DNA from: a virus
IMG/VR virus record: IMGVR_UViG_3300027759_006101
Coordinates: 248,001 to 312,000 of that record
Length of the DNA: 64,000 nt
Reading direction: 5' to 3' (one strand)
In this document: positions 3,651 to 44,319 of the stretch, piece after piece
Numbering within the stretch: position 1 is the first letter of the stretch
How the letters are laid out: each line of letters opens with the position of its first letter
Notes under the pieces: generated by a model
What the model was told of the DNA's origin: nothing
Database searches by the model: none
The model's input: the letters and a program-made list of their open reading frames with translations, nothing else
Position numbers and translations under genes: made by a program

Positions 3651-6600
3651 TTATATCTTTTGCTCAATTTCAAGCGGAGCGTCTTTTCTTGAACCTATTA
3701 CAGTAAAGTCAACTTTGATATGCTTAAGTTTTCTATTCAAGAAATTAGTATTTGCAGCTATTATAAAGGAATTCTTTGATTTCTCTACAATATGTACTCC
3801 ATAGTTTCCGTATGGTGTCAAACTGATTGTAAAGTCATCGTGTACTAATTCAGACCAATATTCAGGTAATTCTATAACAAGATTGCCTCTACCCTCAACG
3901 GTTCCTCTATGATAAACTCCGTGTTCTGGGCCTTCAAGAACACCGTATACAAGTCTGTAACCTTCCTTGGTTGGGTGTTCAATGTCAAAGCTTTTAGTTG
4001 TTGCTCTAAGGTTACCATTTGCATCAACAGAGAATTTTGATGTTGCAGTAGAAGTAATACCTCTAATAAAGAAGTCACTTGTAGAAGAATCATCTCCAGA
4101 GACTGTTTGCAATGTAAGGTATGAATTATTTGTCAAAGCAGCTGAAGCAGAAATCGTAAGACCAGCTCCGCTTCCAAATATGCTACTTACTGTAAGTACG
4201 TCTGTAGATGGTACGTATGAAAGAGCAGCATCAGTAGATACTGCTAATCCTGCACCAGATGTACCTGTTGTCATCAACAAGAAATGAGCACCAGAAGCTG
4301 CTGCAGCATTGACATTAACACTTGTTGAAGTAGTTGCAAATCCTGTTAGATTACCACTAATTGCTCCAGAGAATGAACCTGCAGTTAATACATTAGTAGA
4401 AGGATTATATGTCAAACTAGTATCAGTAGAATGACCCAATCCCGAACCTGATGATGCGTTTACAAATGTGAGAAAGTGAGTTTGGTTAGCATCAGTAACT
4501 GTTACATTTGTACTTGTAGCAGTTGTAGCAAATCCAGTTACATTTCCAGTTACATTACCAGTTACATTACCAGACAATGATGCTGTTACGGTTGTTGCTG
4601 ATATGTTAGTTGAGCTTAATGTATCTGTTGACGGGTTGTAAGTCAATTGAGTGTCAGCTGATACTGCTAAACCTGCTCCGCTGGTACCAGTAGTAAATGT
4701 AACAAAGTGTGCAGCATTAGTTCCCGCAGCATTGACATTTACGCTCAGAGCAGTAGATGCAAAACCAGTTACAGTACCACTAATTGCTCCAGAGAATGTT
4801 CCAGCAGTCAACACATTTGTTGAAGGATTATATGTCAGGTTTGTATCAGCAGATTGACCTAAACCAGCACCTGAAGAAGCATTTACAAATGTGATAAAGT
4901 GAGTTTGGTTAGCATCAGTTACTGTTACATTTGTACTTGTCGCAGTTGTAGCAAATCCTGTCACGTTTCCAGTCACGTTTCCAGTTACGTTTCCAGATAA
5001 AGAGGCAGTAACTGTAGTTGCTGAAATGTTTGTTGAACTTAAAGTATCTGTTGATGGATTGTAAGTCAATTGAGTATCAGCAGATACTGCTAAACCAGCG
5101 CCAGAAGAAGCTGTTACAAAGGTAATGAAGTGTGTGGCATTCAAAGCACCTAAAGCAACATTTGTGCTTGTCGAAGTTGTAGCAAATCCTGTAACATTTC
5201 CTGTTACGTTACCAGTTACATTACCAGATAACGATGCTGTAACTGTAGTAGCAGAAATATTTGTTGAACTCAAGGTATCTGTTGATGGATTGTAAGTCAA
5301 TTGAGTATCAGCAGATACTGCTAAACCTGCACCACTTGAACCTGTGCTGAATGTTACAAAATGTGTAGCATTAGCTGCACCAAGAGCTATATTCACACTA
5401 GTAGCAGTTGTAGCAAAACCAGTTACATTGCCTGTTACATTGCCAGTTAGTGGGCCTGAAAAGAGACCTGCTGTCAAAGTATTGGATGATGGGTTATATG
5501 TTAAGCTGGTATCAGCAGATTGACCTAACCCTGAACCGGATGAAGCATTTACAAATGTGACAAAGTGAGTTTGGTTAGCATCAGTTACTGTTACGTTCGT
5601 ACTATTAGCAGTTTGAGCAAATCCTGTAACATTACCAGTTACATTTCCAACAAGAGTACCAAAGAAATTGGTATAGGTTGCAGCGGTTCCTGCAGCGTTA
5701 CCAGCTAATGTCGCCTCAATAGCAAAGAATACTGCGGTTCCTGCAGTGCCTGAATATATATTTGAACCAGCAGTTGTTGTTGCGTTTGGAATGAATCTGA
5801 ACTTACCATCAGTGTCATTGAATCCAAAGAAACCAGTAGTAGCTGTACCAGCATTAGACCATCTAAACTCAATACCTCTATCTTGGTTATTGTCTAAAGT
5901 TGAGTGAGTTCCACCAACTCCAGAACCAATAACAATAACAGGGTCTACTATTGTTGAAACTGTTGAGTCAACTGTAACTGTCGTACCTTGAACTGTTAAG
6001 TTACCTGTAATAACTAAGTTGTCATTTACATTTGTTTGGCCACCTACAGAGTCCAGAGTTAAGTTTCCTGACGTTGTGTTGATTGTATTTGAAGAACTAC
6101 CGACAATTACACCATTTGCAGTTAATTGTCCAGTGCCTATAGACATTGCATTAGTTGATGGGTTTAGTGTAATTGAGACATCAGTTGATAACGCAGCGCC
6201 AGCACCTGCAGTCGAACTTTGCAAAGCAGAAAACACAAGATAATGTGTTGAATTTTCTGCAGCTGACTGCAATCCTACATTGTTTGCAGTTGAAGCAACG
6301 CCACTAATAGTACCACTAAATGCACCGCTGAAGTTTGTAGCGGAAAGTGTGTCTGTGTTTGGATTGTAGAACAGAGTTGAGTCTGTAGATACTGCAACAC
6401 CAGAGCCAGTTTGTGTTGGTGAGAATAAAACAAAATGACTTGCGGCAGCTGCTCCAGCTGCTACATTGATGCTAGTAGCAGTTGTAGCAAAACCTGTTAC
6501 ATTTCCTGTTACATTTCCTGTAAGAGGGCCAGAGAAAGAACCAGCTGTCAATACATTTGTTGATGGATTATAGGTAAAATCTGTGTCAGTAGATTGTCCT

Positions 6601-8207: not shown

Positions 8208-8951
8208 TTATTTAGGTTGCTCTACAATTAATTTGATATCCGTTCTCTCTCCGACTACAAAATAATCGAATTCAATATATTGTTTACGTAATAGGTTCCT
8301 TCTTACCCTTTGAACTTTGAATTCAGAATTGTCACTTTTAGAAACAAATAAAGAATCATTTACTCGGGAAGTTATATGAACAGTGATTTCATTTTCAGAT
8401 AATGCTTTAAAATAGTTAGGTAATGCAACAGAAACACTCTCATATCCTGATGCTCTTCCTCTTTGATATATTCCGTGTTCTGGTCCCTCTAAAGATCCGT
8501 GTTCCAGATACTTATTTGGGTCTAAGGGATGTTGGATTTTAAAGCTTTTTGTTTGAGCCTTTATACTTCCGCCAACAATAATAGTAGTTCCAAACTGCTG
8601 CATTACTGAATCTGTGAGTTGTGTTCCCCCGGCATCAAATAATGGAATATATGCTGATGTGCCCGAGCCTGTAATTGATCCTGCAGGTGTAGATGTAAGA
8701 GTAATATCGTTGGCGCCAAAGGAAAATGAAATTCCTGAGCCAGCAATGAGTGTTCTATATACTAAACCTGAAGCGCCACTATTTGAACTTAATAAAGCGT
8801 TTCCAGCAGATATACTTGTTAGGCCTGTACCGCCTGCTGTAATTGCTGTAACATTTTGTGTACGCCAAGCAGTGCCATCATAGCGCCAGGTTTTACCGCT
8901 TTCTGTGTAAACCTGATTAGTGCTTGGACCTGAGGGGAAATTTATCGCCAT
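8208..8951 (-). CDS. Short tail-fibre protein, shared N-terminal motif and C-terminal tip domain
   Basis: A 247-aa protein joining two recurring modules. The N-terminus has NFPSGPSTNQVY, GKTWRYDGTAW and an AGGTGL segment, matching the start of the 2722-aa fibre. A short Ser/Gly linker follows. The C-terminal 115 residues (HPLDPNKYLEHGSLEGPEHG onwards, then ALPNYF) are the tip domain also present at 2212-3336 and 3651-8192. It looks like a minimal fibre, an attachment module fused almost directly to a tip, and may bind the same platform as the long fibres. No enzyme motif is visible. Confidence 0.8.
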   Translation of the reverse strand: MAINFPSGPSTNQVYTESGKTWRYDGTAWRTQNVTAITAGGTGLTSISAGNALLSSNSGASGLVYRTLIAGSGISFSFGANDITLTSTPAGSITGSGTSAYIPLFDAGGTQLTDSVMQQFGTTIIVGGSIKAQTKSFKIQHPLDPNKYLEHGSLEGPEHGIYQRGRASGYESVSVALPNYFKALSENEITVHITSRVNDSLFVSKSDNSEFKVQRVRRNLLRKQYIEFDYFVVGERTDIKLIVEQPK

Positions 8952-9025
8952 TTAATTATTTTTGAAAGGAGAATGCTTTTTATTTTATTCTGCATCTTTG
9001 TTATAAAATATTTCTTATATTCCAT
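8942..9025 (-). CDS. Possible 27-aa leader peptide
   Basis: A short frame beginning MEYKKYFITKMQ starts inside the end of the LamG gene at 9015-9680 and ends inside the start of the 247-aa fibre gene. It is lysine-rich. A comparable 16-aa frame (MNYAEYLIST...) precedes the 2722-aa fibre, the other gene with the NFPxxPSTNQ N-terminus. It could be a coupling peptide or chance; there is no strong ribosome-binding site. Confidence 0.25.
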   Translation of the reverse strand: MEYKKYFITKMQNKIKSILLSKIIKWR

Positions 9026-9680
9026 ATCTAAATCTTGTAGCATTGAAATTTTGCAATATTTCTTGTTGTGTGAGGGCTCTGTTGTAAATAAGAGCCCCAG
9101 CAATTCTTCCTGTAAAATTATTACCATTGTCATATGAACCAATATTTATGTCTTGGCTTCCGGTAAAAGCTGTGGTATTAGCACTTGTTCCATCTTGAGT
9201 ACCATTTAGATATAGTTTCCAGCCTGATGTGCTGCTGTATGTAACTGCGCAAAAATACCATCTATTCAGTGATAGTGTTGTTGAACCAACTACTGTATTC
9301 CAAACATTATTATGCCCAGCATTTAATTTATTAGATGCAAAAAGCCAAAATGCGTGTTGTGCAGTATTTCCACCACTTATAATATTGTTTGAAGTTGAAA
9401 AATTTGTTACATAAATATATGCTATCTTTGTGTATTCTGTTTTTGAAAGAGTGTTAGCACTAGAATTTACAATGACATAATCATTTGAGCCATCAAAGGA
9501 AATATATGATGAGCTACCAGAACCAACATATGAAGCTCCATTTGTTAGGGTACTAGTGTTTGAACTTCTACTTAAGTCATACCAAGTATTTCCTGATCCA
9601 GAATAACTTCTTAGATTTACTGCATCAAGATATAGCACTAATCCATCTGATACAATGCTTGGGTTATATCCTACTGCCAT
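9015..9680 (-). CDS. LamG/concanavalin-like domain protein
   Basis: A 221-aa LamG-type protein and the last gene of the seven-member array. It opens with a VSDGLVLYLDAVNLRSYSG signature, has a WYDLS strand near residue 35, a CAVTYSS/GWKLYLNG hairpin near residue 150, and ends with LIYNRALTQQEILQNFNATR followed by RYGI. No cysteine-rich or membrane regions are evident. The start overlaps the previous stop as TAATG. Predicted function: virion-associated carbohydrate- or protein-binding domain; the target is unknown. Confidence 0.8.
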   Translation of the reverse strand: MAVGYNPSIVSDGLVLYLDAVNLRSYSGSGNTWYDLSRSSNTSTLTNGASYVGSGSSSYISFDGSNDYVIVNSSANTLSKTEYTKIAYIYVTNFSTSNNIISGGNTAQHAFWLFASNKLNAGHNNVWNTVVGSTTLSLNRWYFCAVTYSSTSGWKLYLNGTQDGTSANTTAFTGSQDINIGSYDNGNNFTGRIAGALIYNRALTQQEILQNFNATRFRYGI

Positions 9681-10336
9681 TACAATCCAAATCTCTTTCT
9701 TGTAGCGTTATAATTTTGGAGAATTTCTTGTTCTGTTAAAGCTCGGTTGTAGATTTGAGCCAATGCAACAGTGCTATTTGAATACGAACCATATCCTGTG
9801 CCTCCCCAACCTAAAGAAAGCATATTAGTAGTTTCATAAACTATAGGTGTATTGACTGATGAAACACCAATTCCATTTATATAAAGATTATTTGCATTTG
9901 ATATTGAAGTAATTGTAACGTGATACCATTGATTGGTATTTGCTGTATATGCCATAGCGGTAGGATAAGAGCGAATTACTCCGCCAATTGTTCCAATATA
10001 ATTTCCTTGTCTCCAATTCACTCCATCAGTCCAACCAAAACAGACTGCAACATCCCCTGAAGTCAAACTTGCAAATTTAGCCCATACAGATAAAGTTATA
10101 TTTGTACCTTGAATATCATTTCTTCTACCTAATGCTATGTGGTCATTAGTCCCATCAAATATAAAACTGCCATTATTAGAACTTGTAAAACCAACACCAT
10201 TAATGAGTGTTGCACCTGTTCCAGCATATAAATCATAGAATGTTAAACCACTACCAGAATAGCTTCTTCTATTAGCAGCATCAAGATAAAATATTAATCC
10301 ATCAGATATAATGCTTGGAGAATGTGCAAGTCCCAT
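9680..10336 (-). CDS. LamG/concanavalin-like domain protein
   Basis: A 218-aa LamG protein. A longer frame extends to 10465, but the ATG at 10336 is preferred: it yields the family N-terminus MGLAHSPSIISDGLIFYLDA and begins one base after the stop of the gene at 10338. The core carries SFIFDGTNDHIALG and the end is QIYNRALTEQEILQNYNATR plus RFGL. The GVGFTSSNNGSFIFDGTND block is nearly identical in several array members, pointing to recent duplication. The inferred role is surface adhesion. Confidence 0.8.
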   Translation of the reverse strand: MGLAHSPSIISDGLIFYLDAANRRSYSGSGLTFYDLYAGTGATLINGVGFTSSNNGSFIFDGTNDHIALGRRNDIQGTNITLSVWAKFASLTSGDVAVCFGWTDGVNWRQGNYIGTIGGVIRSYPTAMAYTANTNQWYHVTITSISNANNLYINGIGVSSVNTPIVYETTNMLSLGWGGTGYGSYSNSTVALAQIYNRALTEQEILQNYNATRKRFGL

Positions 10337-10337
10337 A

Positions 10338-11000
10338 TCAAATGTTATACCGTTCACGCATAGCATTAAAGTTTTGTTGAATTTCTGTGGCTGATAATGC
10401 TCTGTTAAAAATTTGAACTTGAGATATATTTCCGTTAAAATAAAAACCGCCACCAGAAAATCCAATTAAAAGACCATTACTAGTTAATACATTACTAGAA
10501 ACTGTATTTAAAGTAAAATTTGCAATTCCATCTCTGTAAATATAATGTGTTGTACTGCTTCTTACCGAAACTAAATAATGCCATTCATTATCTGCAAATG
10601 GTAAAAAAATTCCATAGTCACCACTTGTTTCTCTTATACCTCCACCCCAATAAGAAGGAGTTGTAATGCTTCTTCCTAACCAAAACCCATTGATATAATC
10701 AAATTCTATAAGTCTTGCAACAATACCATTTGAAGATGAAGGCTTAAACCATAAAGTGACTGTAAAATCTCCTGATATTGATGTTAGTGAAGGTACATTG
10801 ATATAATCATTAGTACCATCAAAGATAAAACTCCCATTATTTGCACTACTAAATCCAACACCATTTACGAGAGTTCCACCAATTCCACCCACTAAACCAT
10901 TAGAAGTTAAGCCAGATCCAGAGTAACTTCTTAAGTTAGAAGCGTCTAATTGAAAAACTAATCCATCAGATATAGAGTTTGGTCCAGCAGAAATTCCCAT
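10338..11000 (-). CDS. LamG/concanavalin-like domain protein
   Basis: A 220-aa array member. It has the signatures SDGLVFQLDASNLRSYSGSG, LVGGIGGTLVNGVGFSSANN, a DNEWHYLVSVRSS strand and the ending QIFNRALSATEIQQNFNAMR plus RYNI. The TSNGLVGGIGGTLVNGVGF stretch is shared almost exactly with the gene at 11000-11695. The start overlaps the previous gene as TAATG, and the stop is one base before the next ATG. Predicted beta-sandwich binding protein of the virion surface. Confidence 0.8.
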   Translation of the reverse strand: MGISAGPNSISDGLVFQLDASNLRSYSGSGLTSNGLVGGIGGTLVNGVGFSSANNGSFIFDGTNDYINVPSLTSISGDFTVTLWFKPSSSNGIVARLIEFDYINGFWLGRSITTPSYWGGGIRETSGDYGIFLPFADNEWHYLVSVRSSTTHYIYRDGIANFTLNTVSSNVLTSNGLLIGFSGGGFYFNGNISQVQIFNRALSATEIQQNFNAMRERYNI

Positions 11001-11695
11001 TATCTGTATCTTCCTTTTGTGGCATTATAATTTTGCTTTATTTCTTGGGCAGATAAAGCTCTATCAAATAGCTGAACTTGTGATATATTTCCATTAAAAA
11101 TAAATTCATTAGCTTCATCTCTGGCAATTCGAACATTAATAGAATTACTTATGGTTGTGATAGGAGATCCTCCGCCATTCGAAATTGAATAAGAAATTCC
11201 ATCAACAAATAAATCTGTCGCAACTTTATTTGTAATTACTACAGCAACGTGATGCCAGACATTATCATTAATTAATTTACTACAATAATATATAATCCAT
11301 CTACTTCCATCAGTTTGTAATAAAATACTTAATCCTTGTGTAGGAATATCTCCTCGAACAAACATTGCCCAACCAGCTCCACTACCATAGTTTACCAATT
11401 TTGCAACTATCATTTGTACATTAGTGATTGCAGATGTTTTTTGCCAAGCTACTACTGTAAAATTTGTGGGATTATCAAGAAAATTTCCACAATCTACATA
11501 ATCATTTGTCCCATCGAAAATAAAACTTCCATTATTTGATGAAGTAAATCCAACACCATTTACAAGAGTTCCACCTATTCCGCCAACAAGTCCATTAGCT
11601 GTTAGACCTGTTCCTGAATAGCATCTTGGATTAGCTGCATCAAGATACAATACTAATCCATCAGAAACAATTATATTATTATAATCAATGCCCAT
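11000..11695 (-). CDS. LamG/concanavalin-like domain protein
   Basis: A 231-aa LamG protein with VSDGLVLYLDAANPRCYSG near the N-terminus, NGSFIFDGTNDYVDCG in the core, a NVWHHVAVVIT strand and LFVDG hairpin, and the ending QLFDRALSAQEIKQNYNATK plus RYR. The middle third differs from its paralogues while the ends are conserved, as expected if a common scaffold displays different binding loops. Both ends join neighbours through TAATG overlaps. Confidence 0.8.
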   Translation of the reverse strand: MGIDYNNIIVSDGLVLYLDAANPRCYSGTGLTANGLVGGIGGTLVNGVGFTSSNNGSFIFDGTNDYVDCGNFLDNPTNFTVVAWQKTSAITNVQMIVAKLVNYGSGAGWAMFVRGDIPTQGLSILLQTDGSRWIIYYCSKLINDNVWHHVAVVITNKVATDLFVDGISYSISNGGGSPITTISNSINVRIARDEANEFIFNGNISQVQLFDRALSAQEIKQNYNATKGRYR

Positions 11696-12369
11696 TAAAG
11701 TCCATATCTCCTTTTTGTAGCATTATAATTTTGTACTATTTCTGATGCAGTTAAAGCACGATTGTAAATTTTAGCAATACTTATATCACCTTGTAGATAT
11801 TCTGTGGCATAAGTTTTTGCTAGTTGAATTGTAGTTGAAGTTACGTTATGGCTTGTTGGAGTGTCAGAAGCAACAAGAACATTATTAGCATATATTTTTC
11901 TTGTAGTGCCATCAAAAGTAACTCCAGCGTAAAACCATTGATTATTTTGAATATTTCCATTATTGTTAGATGATATTAAATCGTTAGCCCACCAATAATG
12001 AGTCAAATTTCCTAGAGTAGCCGTATATGTTCTAAATGCATTGCTTTGATTGGAAACAGTAAAACCACCAATAGAAATCAAGCCTCTTCCATCTGCCCAA
12101 GAAGAAAGTCTTGCAAATAAGAACATAGAGTAATTATCATTTGCTACAGGAATAGAAGAAGTTCCAGCTCCAGTAAAATAACCTGTTGCGCCTGTTGAAA
12201 AATATCCAGAAGAATTAAAAGATGGGGAATTTGTTAAAGTTAAGTTATTTGCGTTTCTTGACAAATCGTACCAAGTATTGCCTGATCCTGAATAACTTCT
12301 TGGATTTGCTGCATCCCAATATCCCACTAATCCATCAGTGACAATTATAGGAGAATGATCAAGCCCCAT
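11695..12369 (-). CDS. LamG/concanavalin-like domain protein
   Basis: A 224-aa LamG protein. Features are VTDGLVGYWDAANPRSYSGS, a NTWYDLSRNANNLTL strand, WFYAGVTFDGTTRKIYANN and a final KIYNRALTASEIVQNYNATK plus RRYGL. It lacks the SNNGSFIFDGTND block of its upstream and downstream neighbours, so it belongs to a second LamG subtype closer to the gene at 9015-9680. The start and stop overlap neighbours as TAATG. Probable virion adhesin; ligand unknown. Confidence 0.8.
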   Translation of the reverse strand: MGLDHSPIIVTDGLVGYWDAANPRSYSGSGNTWYDLSRNANNLTLTNSPSFNSSGYFSTGATGYFTGAGTSSIPVANDNYSMFLFARLSSWADGRGLISIGGFTVSNQSNAFRTYTATLGNLTHYWWANDLISSNNNGNIQNNQWFYAGVTFDGTTRKIYANNVLVASDTPTSHNVTSTTIQLAKTYATEYLQGDISIAKIYNRALTASEIVQNYNATKRRYGL

Positions 12370-13025
12370 TATCTATATCTCCCTTTTGTGGCGTGGTAGT
12401 TTTGTAACACTTCTTGGGCTGTTAATGCTCGGTTGTACATATTGAATGAAGAAATTTGACAAGCAGCATATTGAGATGCATTAGCTTCTGCACCACCAAA
12501 CAAATAATCAGTTGGAAAATTGGAAATAGTTATAGTAGTAGTTAAAACTGAAACTCCATTCAAGTAAATAATTGTTCCGTCATTTACTCCTGATTGATAT
12601 GTCATAACTACATTTTTCCAAGTGTTGTCTGCAATATTAATACCAGTAGATCTTGTTTGATTTCCACCCCAATCATAGGCAACTAACACACTATCATTAT
12701 AAAAAAAACCATAAGCACCTTGTCTTGCAATAATGCCTCTAAAGCCTCCACCTGGTGCGCTTGTTTTTGTCCAAGCTGATAATGTGCCTGAAGATTGTTG
12801 CAATGTAGAACTATTACCAAAATTTATATAGTCATTAGTTCCATCAAAAATAAAACTTCCATTATTAGAAGAGGTAAATCCAACTCCATTTACAAGAGTC
12901 CCAACAATACCACCTACTAATCCATTTGCAGTAAAACCAGCTCCTGAATAACTTCTTGTATTTCCAGCATCTAATTGAACAATTAATCCATCAGTAACTT
13001 CGATAGGTCCAATATCAATGCCCAT
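12369..13025 (-). CDS. LamG/concanavalin-like domain protein
   Basis: A 218-aa LamG protein of the SNNGSFIFDGTND subtype. It shows VTDGLIVQLDAGNTRSYSG, SAWTKTS, a NTWKNVVMTYQS strand, IIYLNGVS and the ending NMYNRALTAQEVLQNYHATK plus RYR. It shares the same glycine-rich NGLVGGI segment with two other array members. The stop overlaps the next start as TAATG; the gene follows the 248-aa LamG gene after a 3-bp gap. Predicted surface-binding protein. Confidence 0.8.
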   Translation of the reverse strand: MGIDIGPIEVTDGLIVQLDAGNTRSYSGAGFTANGLVGGIVGTLVNGVGFTSSNNGSFIFDGTNDYINFGNSSTLQQSSGTLSAWTKTSAPGGGFRGIIARQGAYGFFYNDSVLVAYDWGGNQTRSTGINIADNTWKNVVMTYQSGVNDGTIIYLNGVSVLTTTITISNFPTDYLFGGAEANASQYAACQISSFNMYNRALTAQEVLQNYHATKGRYR

Positions 13026-13028
13026 TAT

Positions 13029-13775
13029 TTATAACCCATAGATAGCTTTATAAGTGTTGTAGTTAGTTGCTACTTCGTCAGCTGTCAATCCTCTGTTGTA
13101 TACTTGAAAACTACCTACTCTCATAGCACAATAACTTCCCTCACCCATATTTGTACCGTCTTCAGCACCTAAAGCATAATGTAAATTAAAGCCATTGTTA
13201 AAAGGAGCTTGTCTTGTTAAAGTTGCAGTGCCGATTGATGCCCCATTAATATATGCAGTAAGGGTAGTTCCAGAGTAAGTCCAGCCAAGGTTATACCAAG
13301 TATTGAAAGATTTTGATGAACTTGTCACTCTATTAACTAAATTACCATGCCAAACACTAAAAGATATTAGACCACCACTTGATATTTCAATGTTTGAATC
13401 GTGCCAAGCTGAGTTTACAACAGCTTGGCCTATTTCAGAAACAATAACCCCTTGCTCAGTAGGATAACACCAAATAAAAATTGATTGGGCTGTAGATTTA
13501 TTAGGAGATGTTCCACTTATCTGCGCATTTAAGGATGTTGAAGTCATAACGTATTGATTAGAACCATTTAAGGATATATATCCACCGTCACTGCTGGAAT
13601 AAGTTGGACTATTAGCTAAAGTCGCATTACTATTACCTACATCATCAGTCCATGTTGAGCCAGAAGGAGGTGCTGTTTTCAAGTGACAAATTAACCCAGA
13701 ACCAACAACTGCTACACGAGTTGAAAAGATTCTACTTAAAGGTTTATGTTGACTGGAAAATGTGTTTAATGGCAT
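13029..13775 (-). CDS. LamG/concanavalin-like domain protein, divergent
   Basis: A 248-aa LamG protein and the first of the tandem array in transcription order. The N-terminus is different (MPLNTFSSQHKPLSRIFSTR), but the fold signatures remain: GSTWTDDVGNSNATL, GGYISLNGSNQYVM, a WYNLGWTYSGTTLTAYINGA hairpin and the ending QVYNRGLTADEVATNYNTYK plus IYGL. It starts 6 bp after the 1048-aa fibre gene. The alternative N-terminus may anchor the protein differently from the others. Confidence 0.8.
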   Translation of the reverse strand: MPLNTFSSQHKPLSRIFSTRVAVVGSGLICHLKTAPPSGSTWTDDVGNSNATLANSPTYSSSDGGYISLNGSNQYVMTSTSLNAQISGTSPNKSTAQSIFIWCYPTEQGVIVSEIGQAVVNSAWHDSNIEISSGGLISFSVWHGNLVNRVTSSSKSFNTWYNLGWTYSGTTLTAYINGASIGTATLTRQAPFNNGFNLHYALGAEDGTNMGEGSYCAMRVGSFQVYNRGLTADEVATNYNTYKAIYGL

Positions 13776-34601: not shown

Positions 34602-35360
34602 TCAAGTAAATATTCTATTGTAATATTCCTCGTATGTATTGTAACTGTCCTCGTCTTCCATAACTACAAAAATATTTTTAATTTTGCAATTTTTCTCTGA
34701 GTTCAAGAATGTTTTTATAGCTGATAATTGAACTCGGGCAGAATCATTGATATCTAAAGTTCCACAATCACTAGGCAACATTACAATATTTCTAGCTTCT
34801 TCTTGGTTTGCTAAAATAAGAGCTTTTTTGATTGCTGACTTTGTATCAGCTTCATTTACAAGCCTGCTCTCTCCTGCTACTACTGCATGATAAACTTTCT
34901 GAGGTTTAACTTTAGAATCACCAAAACCATTTGAAGTAATATATACGGTGCCCATTTTGATTGGTTTTGAGAATTTATCACATTCAAATTGAATTCTGCC
35001 TCTTGACATACGATTGAGCAGAGGATCGTCTATAGTAAGGCCAATATTCGTTGGGTAAACCAAAACATCTGACTTGACAAGATAAGGGTTTTCAACTTTG
35101 TGGATACTTACTTTAGTACTTTCGACAAATTCTTCAGTGATTTGTTTTACAGCTGGTTCGTCAATAACTTCTTGAGATTTAGATTCTTTTGTTTCTTCTT
35201 TGTACGAACACTTAAGAATAGAACCTTCGCAATCAGAAATCCATTTTTCTTGAATTACTGAAAATTCTTTTTTCAATAAAAAAGCTACTAATCTTGGGTT
35301 TGAAATTAACTTGAGAGCACATTCTGATGTTTGAGTGTAAAGTGGGCAAATTTGATCCAT
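34602..35360 (-). CDS. Macro-domain-like protein with cysteine-containing N-terminus
   Basis: A 252-aa protein. Residues 90-245 follow the macro (ADP-ribose-binding) domain layout: a VKSDVLVYPTNIGL strand in place of the usual D-A-I-V-N-A-A-N, a small-residue loop LNRMSRGRIQFE, a VYITSNGFGDSKVKPQKVYHAVV pair of strands, helix KSAIKKALILANQ, strand NIVMLPSDCGT and a final NIFVVM strand. The N-terminal 55 residues contain four cysteines (CPLYTQ, EC, DC, KC), possibly a metal site, followed by a charged linker. Macro domains bind or hydrolyse ADP-ribose adducts; activity here is inferred. Neighbours are PAS-like and virion-type genes. Confidence 0.6.
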   Translation of the reverse strand: MDQICPLYTQTSECALKLISNPRLVAFLLKKEFSVIQEKWISDCEGSILKCSYKEETKESKSQEVIDEPAVKQITEEFVESTKVSIHKVENPYLVKSDVLVYPTNIGLTIDDPLLNRMSRGRIQFECDKFSKPIKMGTVYITSNGFGDSKVKPQKVYHAVVAGESRLVNEADTKSAIKKALILANQEEARNIVMLPSDCGTLDINDSARVQLSAIKTFLNSEKNCKIKNIFVVMEDEDSYNTYEEYYNRIFT

Positions 35361-38276: not shown

Positions 38277-39632
38277 TCATCCTTCTAAAATATATTTGCT
38301 GGGTTCAAGGACTGTTTCTTTAGTTACTTTGATTTTTATTTTTTCTTGATTATTTACGCCCAAATATTCGAATGCTGCTGAAGATAAAGACATCTTCACA
38401 ATAGAATTAAGTGCTCTTGTTCCAGTACCTGCTTTGATAGCTTTATTAATTACTTCTTCTAAAAAATCTTCTTCAAAATCTAAGATAACATTAGATTCAG
38501 CAAATAATAATTGATGCTTCTTCACAGGGCTATCTTCTAATTGCGTAAGACAATAAAGCATTTGTTCTCTGTCTAATGGAATCAAAGGAACAATTGATTG
38601 AATTCTGCCTACAAATTCAGTTGACATACCAAATTCAATTAAACTTTCGGCCAAAACCTCGTGAGATGCCTTATTGTAGATTTCATAATTTTTAACTTGA
38701 GCATCGTACTCATTGGTTTTTGTATTTCTGAAGCCTATTGTTCCTTCAGTAAGACCTAGTTTTTTAGCAACGATTTTTTCCAAACCATTAAATGCTCCGC
38801 CAAAACAAAATAAAATATTAGAAGTATCCACTACTACAGGTGGCGTACCTTGCTCTCCTAAGGCAGCAGAGCTAACTTTAACTTTTTTCCCTTCAATAAG
38901 TTTGAGTAATGTACTTTGAGTTGAATAGTGAAAACTCTCAAGTCTTGTTGCAGCACTCATATTTGATGCTAATTTGTCAATCTCATCAATAAATACAACA
39001 CCTTTTTCAGCTAATCCAGGTTCACCATTTGCTTTTAATAATAAATCAGTTATGACAGAATCAGCATCAGATCCTTGAAATCCTGTGGGTGAAAATGATG
39101 TAGCATCGCCCGAAACGAAAGGAACGTCTAAATACTTTGAAATTGTATTTACGATCAATGTTTTACCAGAGCCTGAAGGGCCTAAAAACAAGATATTTTG
39201 CTTATCATTACTGACTGAATTATGGATGTTTCGCATATGTTCAAAAACAGCTAAACTAATTCTTTTTTTTGCTATATCTTGACCAACGACTTTTTTGTTG
39301 AGGTTTTCATATAAATCTTTAGGATTGACATATTTGAATTTCTTAATGTCACTCGTGAATAAAAACTTTTTTGATAATGGTGCTATTTCTGCAAGCTTCA
39401 TTTTCAGATCAAGTACTGGACTCTCATTGTCACAACTTGAAATAAGAGAAATAACATTTTGATGAACTTGAAGTTGTCCAAATTTATTTCCTGTCAAATA
39501 CGATTTGTAACAAGCATCACACAAATGCATTTTTACTAACCTGTTTGCGAAAATTTCAATTTCTCCAAGAACGTCTTTAGTTGCAGGCCTACTACAAAAG
39601 TTACATTCAATTCCTTTAAGTTGTTTCAACAT
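38277..39632 (-). CDS. clpX: ClpX-like AAA+ unfoldase
   Basis: A 451-aa protein of normal ClpX length with AGGAGG upstream. Domains: an N-terminal zinc module (C10, C13, C38, C41), then the AAA+ core with Walker A GPSGSGKT at 151-158, pore loop GFQG at 184-187 (GYVG in E. coli ClpX), Walker B VVFIDEID at 212-219, arginine finger R343 in TEFVGR and sensor-2 R406 in GTRAL. TIGF at 298-301 corresponds to the IGF loop that docks ClpP. The segment where E. coli ClpX has its RKH loop reads GEQGTPP. No clpP is in the window, so it may use the host peptidase or act as a stand-alone remodeller. Confidence 0.92.
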   Translation of the reverse strand: MLKQLKGIECNFCSRPATKDVLGEIEIFANRLVKMHLCDACYKSYLTGNKFGQLQVHQNVISLISSCDNESPVLDLKMKLAEIAPLSKKFLFTSDIKKFKYVNPKDLYENLNKKVVGQDIAKKRISLAVFEHMRNIHNSVSNDKQNILFLGPSGSGKTLIVNTISKYLDVPFVSGDATSFSPTGFQGSDADSVITDLLLKANGEPGLAEKGVVFIDEIDKLASNMSAATRLESFHYSTQSTLLKLIEGKKVKVSSAALGEQGTPPVVVDTSNILFCFGGAFNGLEKIVAKKLGLTEGTIGFRNTKTNEYDAQVKNYEIYNKASHEVLAESLIEFGMSTEFVGRIQSIVPLIPLDREQMLYCLTQLEDSPVKKHQLLFAESNVILDFEEDFLEEVINKAIKAGTGTRALNSIVKMSLSSAAFEYLGVNNQEKIKIKVTKETVLEPSKYILEG

Positions 39633-41884: not shown

Positions 41885-42877
41885 ATGTCAAATGAGTTTG
41901 ATCCCAAAAAAATTATTGATTTTGAAAAGGATTATTATAATATATTATCCATAGATAAAGAATCTTTTCCAAAAGGTAATACCAGAAATGATGTTATTGC
42001 AAGAACAAAAATACTAGAATCTGCTTTCAGAAAAGGAGCAAGAAAAGCTCATCCTGATTTTGGCGGATCTGATGAACAATTCTTAGACTTGGTGAGAGCC
42101 AGAAGAATACTTGAAGACTCTATTTTGCGTAAGATATATGATAATGGAGAGTTTTTGGATTTTGATATTAACATTTCTGAAGACACTAGCTTCAAAGTTG
42201 ATTGGACAAAAGTTGGCAATTATAGAAAAGGCACTCCTGAAGACACAGTAGGATTTAGCTTATTCTTAAGATTATGCGAGAAAAAAGAAGAGCTTGGACT
42301 TGTGCCTGCATTTTTTCCAACAACTAATGAACACAATTATCAATGGGATTTTGTAATTAAAGATTCCAATAAAAATAAATTAGTTATTTCTATTGTCAAT
42401 GACGAAAATGAAGTGTTAAGACTTACAACTTCTGACAAAATACAAGATTCTTTACCATTTAAGATTTATATTTGTGTTCCAGAAAGTTCGCTGGTATTTT
42501 CACGAGACAATAACTTAACTATTGACCCTTATGGCAAAACCCTTATAAATGGAACAATCTTAAACGCAAACTACAATGATTTAGATTTGTTGGAGTCTAC
42601 AAACATAAACTCTACAAATAATTATATAGAAAAAGCTTTAGCTCAAGATTTAATTGCTTTTAAAAATGGAGAACTCAAGTCAAAATCATATAAAAACCAG
42701 AAAAAATGGATTTCTAGTGAAGAACTAAAAAAAATTGATAAAGAAAAATTACAAGAAATTGTAAACTTCAGAAGTTTTGAGGTTGCCAATTTAGAAAATG
42801 CAGACACTTGGTTAGATTCAATTGACAAAAAACCTATTAAAAGATTGTTTGAAAGCAAACCTGATTTGCCTTTATAA
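41885..42877 (+). CDS. J-domain (DnaJ-like) co-chaperone
   Basis: A 330-aa protein. Residues 12-85 form a J domain: YYNILSIDKESFPKGN, helix RTKILESAFRKGARKAHPDF with the essential HPD at 56-58, then FLDLVRARRILEDSILRKIY. No Gly/Phe region or cysteine zinc repeats follow, so it is a class III J protein with a private C-terminal domain of about 240 residues. J domains stimulate Hsp70 ATPase, and this phage encodes a DnaK at 60567-62261, a likely partner. There is no obvious ribosome-binding site before the ATG. Confidence 0.8.
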   Translation: MSNEFDPKKIIDFEKDYYNILSIDKESFPKGNTRNDVIARTKILESAFRKGARKAHPDFGGSDEQFLDLVRARRILEDSILRKIYDNGEFLDFDINISEDTSFKVDWTKVGNYRKGTPEDTVGFSLFLRLCEKKEELGLVPAFFPTTNEHNYQWDFVIKDSNKNKLVISIVNDENEVLRLTTSDKIQDSLPFKIYICVPESSLVFSRDNNLTIDPYGKTLINGTILNANYNDLDLLESTNINSTNNYIEKALAQDLIAFKNGELKSKSYKNQKKWISSEELKKIDKEKLQEIVNFRSFEVANLENADTWLDSIDKKPIKRLFESKPDLPL

Positions 42878-42951: not shown

Positions 42952-44319
42952 TTGGCAAAGCATATATACATCATCGACACTTGTGTCCTACTCCACGATC
43001 CCCTTGCTCTCTATAAATTCGGTGATAATGATATTTACATACCATTAGCAGTCATCGATGATTTGGATGATATCAAGACAAGAAAAGAAAATGTTGGTTG
43101 GTCAGCTAGACAAGTATTTAGAAACTTAGAACATTACTCACTTCAAGATCTTCTCAAGGGCGTTAAAATCAATGAGTTGGGAGGAAGATTGTTTGTTTAC
43201 AACACTGAGTCTCCTTTACAAAAAAATGAAAGACCAAATATCGTTAAAGTTCATTCTGATAACGCAATTATAGAATGCTGCTTAGCCCTAAAATCAGCAA
43301 ATCCTAGAAAGAAAGTAGCGATTATCACAAAAGATACTGGATTAAGAATTCGTGCTATCACTTGGGGTTGTGCAGCTGAAAATTACAGAGCAGATCAACT
43401 TTCTGATGAAATTTACACAGGTATCAGAAAATTTGAACTTACTAATGAAACAGATTGGGCGTTACTTTGGTCAGATTATGAAATTGAAGCTAAAAAACTC
43501 TCTGAAGAAACAATTACTCAGCTTGGCGACATATTTCCAAACGAATTTATTTTATTTCACTACGGAGATAAAATTTGCCCTACACTATATAAGAGAGGCA
43601 TTTTTAGAATTCTCAAAGAAAAATCCAATGCTAAAGAATCAAAGGGATTCTCTGGAATTCAAGGTAAAAACTTAGAGCAAAAGTGTGCTTTAGAAATTTT
43701 ATCTGATTTGACTGTAGCTTTAGTAACTCTATCTGGACCAGCTGGTACAGGTAAATCTTTCTTAGCTCTTGCAGCTGCTTTGCAAATGATTAACGAAGGT
43801 ATCTACGACAAGATTGTTGTAATGAAGCCACTGATTGCGGTTGGCGGAAAAGACATTGGTGCTCTTCCTGGTGATAAGTTTGACAAGATTTCTGCTTGGC
43901 TAGGACCTATCAAAGACAACATTGACCAAATCTTGGGCTCTAAATCTCTTTCTGCTAATAATATGTTTGAAGAAATGTGTCGAGATGGAATTATTGAAGT
44001 AGAAGCTATGGCTTTTATTCAAGGTCGTTCTATTCCAAGATCTATCATTATTCTTGATGAAGCTGAGAACATTAGCCCTAGAGAAGCAAGGATGGTAGTA
44101 GAAAGATGCGGAAAAGACAGTAAAGTAATCCTTCTTGGCGATCTGTCACAAGTCGAAAATCCTTATCTTGATGCTAGATCAAACGGCCTTTCTCACGCTA
44201 TATCAGGTGGAAAGAAAAGTGAACTAGTAGCTTCTGTTACCCTAAGTAAAGTTGAAAGATCTGAATTAGCTGCTGTTGCTAGTGAGATTTTCAATAGACC
44301 TGAAGCTAGAAGAAATTAA
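42952..44319 (+). CDS. phoH: PIN domain-PhoH ATPase fusion
   Basis: A 455-aa protein. It starts at TTG, supported by GAGGAG (42937-42942) nine bases upstream; no closer ATG fits. Residues 1-150 are a PIN nuclease domain (YIIDTCVLLHDP with the first acidic residue D9, then IPLAVIDDLDDIK and VAIITKDTGLRIRA). Residues 235-455 are a PhoH P-loop ATPase with GPAGTGKS at 262-269 and Walker B IIILDEAEN near 365. This is the PhoH2-type architecture with RNA-unwinding and RNase activity in bacteria. It may act on host or phage RNA; regulation by phosphate is not visible. Confidence 0.88.
   Translation: MAKHIYIIDTCVLLHDPLALYKFGDNDIYIPLAVIDDLDDIKTRKENVGWSARQVFRNLEHYSLQDLLKGVKINELGGRLFVYNTESPLQKNERPNIVKVHSDNAIIECCLALKSANPRKKVAIITKDTGLRIRAITWGCAAENYRADQLSDEIYTGIRKFELTNETDWALLWSDYEIEAKKLSEETITQLGDIFPNEFILFHYGDKICPTLYKRGIFRILKEKSNAKESKGFSGIQGKNLEQKCALEILSDLTVALVTLSGPAGTGKSFLALAAALQMINEGIYDKIVVMKPLIAVGGKDIGALPGDKFDKISAWLGPIKDNIDQILGSKSLSANNMFEEMCRDGIIEVEAMAFIQGRSIPRSIIILDEAENISPREARMVVERCGKDSKVILLGDLSQVENPYLDARSNGLSHAISGGKKSELVASVTLSKVERSELAAVASEIFNRPEARRN

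Follow-up and report, generated by a model that had tools for sequence, protein, structure and literature searches.

Relation to known ClpXP systems

In E. coli ClpX, residues Tyr153, Val154, Thr199, Val202, Arg228 and His230 are critical for binding and specificity toward the ssrA tag, and are experimentally supported contacts (PMC7652416). Human mitochondrial CLPX lacks the E. coli-type RKH and pore-2 residues: leucine stands in for both Thr199 and His230, and ssrA substrates are not degraded by this enzyme (PMC7652416, PMC7112952). Among viruses, the complete genomes of the jumbo phages Atu_ph07, PA5oct and Lak-B2 each encode ClpX and ClpP at unlinked sites, and the Clp proteins of Atu_ph07 are discussed in its genome paper (PMC6102473). 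A phage ClpXP pair is already known as a genome feature (Atu_ph07, PA5oct, Lak) and such genes are mentioned in genome papers; we found no paper dedicated to phage-encoded ClpX or ClpP in the open-licence literature. Here we analyse a jumbo phage clpX gene in a 64,000-nucleotide window, bases 248001-312000 of the 358,269-base viral record IMGVR_UViG_3300027759_006101 (G000). Our best reading is that it belongs to a ClpXP that the phage itself encodes and whose degron code is altered.

The phage pair resembles bacterial ClpXP (E. coli ClpX b0438, ClpP b0437) in the domain order of ClpX, its Walker motifs, arginine finger, sensor 2 and IGF tripeptide, and in the catalytic triad and fold of ClpP. 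It differs in having a larger zinc module, approximately 40 extra N-terminal residues in ClpX, and genes that lie 80 kb apart. The ClpX proteins of Atu_ph07, PA5oct and Lak-B2 differ from the one studied here in retaining GYVG and DVSGEGV. Their RKH site is RKH in Lak-B2 and RKN in Atu_ph07, and is also lost in PA5oct, whose docking tripeptide is MGF. Human CLPX differs from the phage protein in its pore-1 GYVG, its RKL and its being a cellular enzyme. We found no description in the open-licence literature of a clade in which the whole degron-contact surface is replaced.

A divergent ClpX with an intact motor

The best PDB sequence match of the 451-residue product is N. meningitidis ClpX (E 2e-56), and its predicted fold matches the ClpX chains of solved ClpXP complexes, with template modelling (TM) scores up to 0.86 by target; all structure predictions were single-chain models. 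The top NCBIfam model is also ClpX, whose equivalog cut-off of 359 bits the protein misses with 272; a second comparison gave 240 bits against 371. Judged from its sequence, the protein is a divergent homologue of bacterial ClpX, for which we do not claim functional equivalence. Motifs were placed by alignment with E. coli ClpX from NC_000913 (b0438):

38277..39632 (-), phage ClpX, 451 amino acids (open reading frame call, PDB and NCBIfam sequence matches, predicted fold)
39510..39605 (-), N-terminal zinc module, Cys10/13/38/41
39159..39182 (-), Walker A, GPSGSGKT (151-158)
39072..39083 (-), pore-1 loop, GFQG (184-187); GYVG in other ClpX
38976..38999 (-), Walker B, VVFIDEID (212-219; FIDEID 214-219)
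38919..38945 (-), pore-2 region, RLESFHYST (230-238), replacing RDVSGEGV
38838..38858 (-), RKH-loop site, GEQGTPP (259-265)
38730..38738 (-), ClpP-docking tripeptide, IGF (299-301; TIGF 298-301)
38604..38606 (-), arginine finger, R343
38415..38417 (-), sensor-2 arginine, R406

The AAA+ core is complete, with both Walker motifs, the arginine finger and sensor 2. An earlier reading of the window from its letters alone (the first-pass annotation) had listed these motifs along with the zinc module and TIGF, and the alignment bears out every one. Its observation of GEQGTPP at the RKH site and GFQG in the pore loop was equally correct, and the replacement proves to extend further, to all six degron-contact residues.

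At the N terminus, a four-cysteine zinc domain is present, for which zinc binding is predicted. Its cysteine spacing, CxxC-x24-CxxC, is longer than that of E. coli ClpX, and a Pfam search of the protein returned zero ClpX zinc-finger matches at E<=0.001. The module is followed by the approximately 40 extra residues, which are clade-specific and partly helical in the model. Close ClpX relatives share both the long module and the extension, with His instead of Cys at the fourth zinc ligand position in three of them (L009-L011).

The ssrA-reading surface is replaced throughout the clade

These relatives (L002-L011) are 46-76% identical to the studied ClpX over the full alignment, the next viral ClpX reach <=34%, and the clade has support of 100/100. 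We compared nine non-redundant clade rows with 85 other viral ClpX, all aligned to E. coli ClpX. The pore-1 YV position is FQ in all nine clade rows, and the pore-2 TV position is RS, KS or RA in each of them. At the RKH arginine position every clade row has G, while the histidine position is variable. The other viral ClpX, in contrast, retain YV in 84/85 cases, TV in 77/85 and RH in 67/85 (RN in 9/85). An alignment gap beside Thr199 leaves that single pore-2 position in doubt, whereas the SGEGV segment is certainly lost. The protein of the studied record reads FQ, RS and G.Q at the contact sites and falls outside the ssrA-recognising type.

The equivalents of K125, E185, R307 and R370 (the ATP-hydrolysis lysine and glutamate and two arginines) are retained in 9/9 clade rows. 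By alignment, the clade differs from E. coli ClpX at all six degron-contact residues while the predicted catalytic and docking residues stay. Since human ClpX, with leucines at two of these positions, fails on ssrA substrates, loss of ssrA reading would be the expected consequence in the phage clade. The stem branch of the ClpX clade measures 4.95 changes per column, versus 0.73 for the matching ClpP clade, a rough comparison as the taxon samples differ; the long ClpX branch fits a specificity change on the unfoldase side. A search of the studied record found no SspB-like adaptor, and no tmRNA was found in the stretches scanned (approximately 357 of 358 kb of the record). The clade constitutes a natural ClpX variant that keeps its motor and docking tripeptide but has exchanged every known degron contact. 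It offers a direct way to test how ClpX specificity is determined and which proteins giant phages degrade in infection.

The same record encodes a complete ClpP

A Pfam search of the whole record for CLP_protease gave one match (206392-206925, minus strand; PF00574, 227 bits), which lies in the following gene:

record 206380-206976 (-), phage ClpP (PF00574, NF001368, triad, model)

The reading frame encodes 199 amino acids from a GTG start or 194 from ATG. Its product clears the NCBIfam ClpP subfamily cut-off (NF001368), and its Ser-His-Asp triad is intact by alignment. The structural model has a mean confidence (pLDDT, predicted local distance difference test) of 92 and TM scores mostly of 0.90-0.95 to solved ClpP structures. 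We also considered a stray host fragment as the source of clpP; this was ruled out, since the same phage neighbours recur beside clpP in related viral contigs. At 74-85% identity, the relatives of the protein (L126-L130) fall into a clade supported at 100/97, whose sister in this sampling is a ClpP of Chthonomonas (Armatimonadota). No ClpA/B/X-class unfoldase other than ClpX was matched in the record. As a separate observation, two other viral ClpP homologues (L146 and L152) have Asn aligned at the catalytic Asp (SHN).

The first-pass annotation had stated that no phage ClpP is in the window, which is true of the window and misleading for the genome, as the record carries clpP approximately 41 kb beyond the window. 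It had proposed that the phage ClpX attaches to the ClpP ring of the host and turns the host protease on new targets, and had named a phage-encoded ClpP elsewhere in the genome as evidence to the contrary; our search of the rest of the genome found just such a complete ClpP. Docking on host ClpP is possible given the intact IGF, which sits on a loop (297-305) with pLDDT below 50 that is predicted to be flexible, as expected, and host ClpP is widespread in bacteria. However, the gene can now be explained without such docking, and redirection of the host protease as its purpose is unsupported because the same record encodes a complete ClpP. Furthermore, the clpP-less records of the clade end early and so offer no case in which this ClpX operates in the absence of phage ClpP. 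We therefore regard recruitment of host ClpP as improbable. Nor did this analysis support defence or sigma factors as the specific targets that had been suggested.

It is instead probable that clpX encodes the unfoldase of a ClpXP protease whose two components both come from the phage, and most likely that the phage brings its own degradation machine instead of only borrowing that of the host. The IGF loops of phage ClpX hexamers would engage rings of the phage ClpP, and substrates chosen by a different degron would be pulled in, perhaps with the help of a phage adaptor or of the enlarged N-domain; host or phage proteins might be degraded in this way during infection. With the host-ClpP reading displaced by a phage-encoded pair, what is left of interest is the altered specificity.

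Co-occurrence of clpX and clpP

A second record (G010) carries both clade ClpX and clade ClpP, approximately 100 kb apart. In the remaining nine ClpX records we found no canonical ClpP, with only a distant ClpP-like match in G008. With the 80-kb spacing of the studied record, the expected clpP position falls past the contig end in 9/9 of these; this assumes a conserved clpX-clpP spacing, and given the value in G010 the estimate is good, not exact. None of the nine contains the IMP dehydrogenase-like or the Hsp20 neighbour of clpP, and the 316-kb record G005 breaks off inside groEL, a gene that lies approximately 8 kb from clpP in the studied record. ClpP-free clade members, first suggested by the clpP-less records, were dropped as a proposal, as all nine end short of the expected position.

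Docking and alternative roles

The docking tripeptide is IGF in seven of the nine clade rows. IGL is the docking tripeptide of ClpA. The presence of IGF or IGL in 8/9 rows suggests selection for ClpP docking, and from the sequences docking of the phage ClpX on the phage ClpP is plausible.

Several points weigh against a phage ClpXP. Where the others have IGF, L011 has IGL and L010 has VSL. The two genes are 80 kb apart and form no operon, and co-occurrence rests on few genomes, with just two records carrying both. Finally, at positions that we take to line the ClpP pocket, the phage clade has E60, T82, T90 and S112 throughout, with Y62, L48 and L114 retained, and this unusual rim could weaken IGF binding. 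We had considered these substitutions unique or pocket-breaking, and downgraded them to unusual after finding each of them singly among 80 surveyed cellular ClpP (E60 1/80, T82 1/80, T90 5/80, S112 21/80).

The altered rim can be read in two further ways. In the first, ClpX at its tag-reading surface and ClpP at its docking rim may have changed together. The resulting orthogonal ClpXP would use a private degron encoded by either phage or host, while ssrA tags of the host, and perhaps its ATPases too, would be ignored; we consider this possible, if rather unlikely. Alternatively, phage ClpP might mix with host ClpP in heteromeric rings and alter which host ATPases dock, leaving phage ClpX as one of several users. 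Such rings are known in bacteria (e.g., P. aeruginosa ClpP1/ClpP2, entry 9ndj) and the rim is altered clade-wide, but its residues are within the natural variation of cellular ClpP, and we give this mixing very little credence.

The distance between clpX and clpP, the J-domain protein among the clpX neighbours and the loss of IGF in L010 would also suit a protease-independent role. The phage ClpX would then remodel proteins during virion assembly or replication, unfolding or chaperoning them as ClpX does with MuA, and phage ClpP would work separately. The near-universal IGF or IGL speaks against this role, and we judge it a poor prospect. The L010 ClpX itself (~4965-6356), with VSL at the IGF position, is a candidate ClpP-independent ClpX.

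Genome surroundings

clpX lies within a conserved block with genes for a J-domain protein and a PhoH-like ATPase, and the surroundings of clpP include further chaperone, transcription and metabolic genes:

41885..42877 (+), J-domain protein, HPD motif, PF00226; conserved clpX neighbour in relatives
42952..44319 (+), PhoH-like ATPase; conserved clpX neighbour
record 203372-203911 (-), sigma-70 region 2/4 protein (extracytoplasmic function-like), near clpP
record 204730-205731 (-), inosine monophosphate (IMP) dehydrogenase/guanosine monophosphate reductase-like, adjoins clpP, conserved in relatives
record 207809-208318 (-), Hsp20 (L102), two genes away from clpP; G010 and G031 have it at 90% identity
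record 209948-210481 (+), NusG-like protein, near clpP
record 214976-216589 (+), GroEL-family chaperonin (L103), full-length, PF00118, 245 bits

groEL is also found in G010 and G031 and is cut in G005. The genome holds several protein-quality-control genes beyond ClpXP, namely those for GroEL, Hsp20 and the J-domain protein. A likeness to PA5oct is Hsp20, which in that phage is near clpX. By topoisomerase and PhoH proteins, the nearest isolates are less than 60% identical.

Two other loci in the window should be mentioned. The protein encoded at 34602-35360 (-) lies beside clpX in all clade members; it had no match among named phage records and gave a weak Macro-domain match (E 0.009, below the cut-off). 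At 8208-13775 (-) there are eight adjacent or overlapping open reading frames of 218-261 amino acids, possibly a paralogous array.
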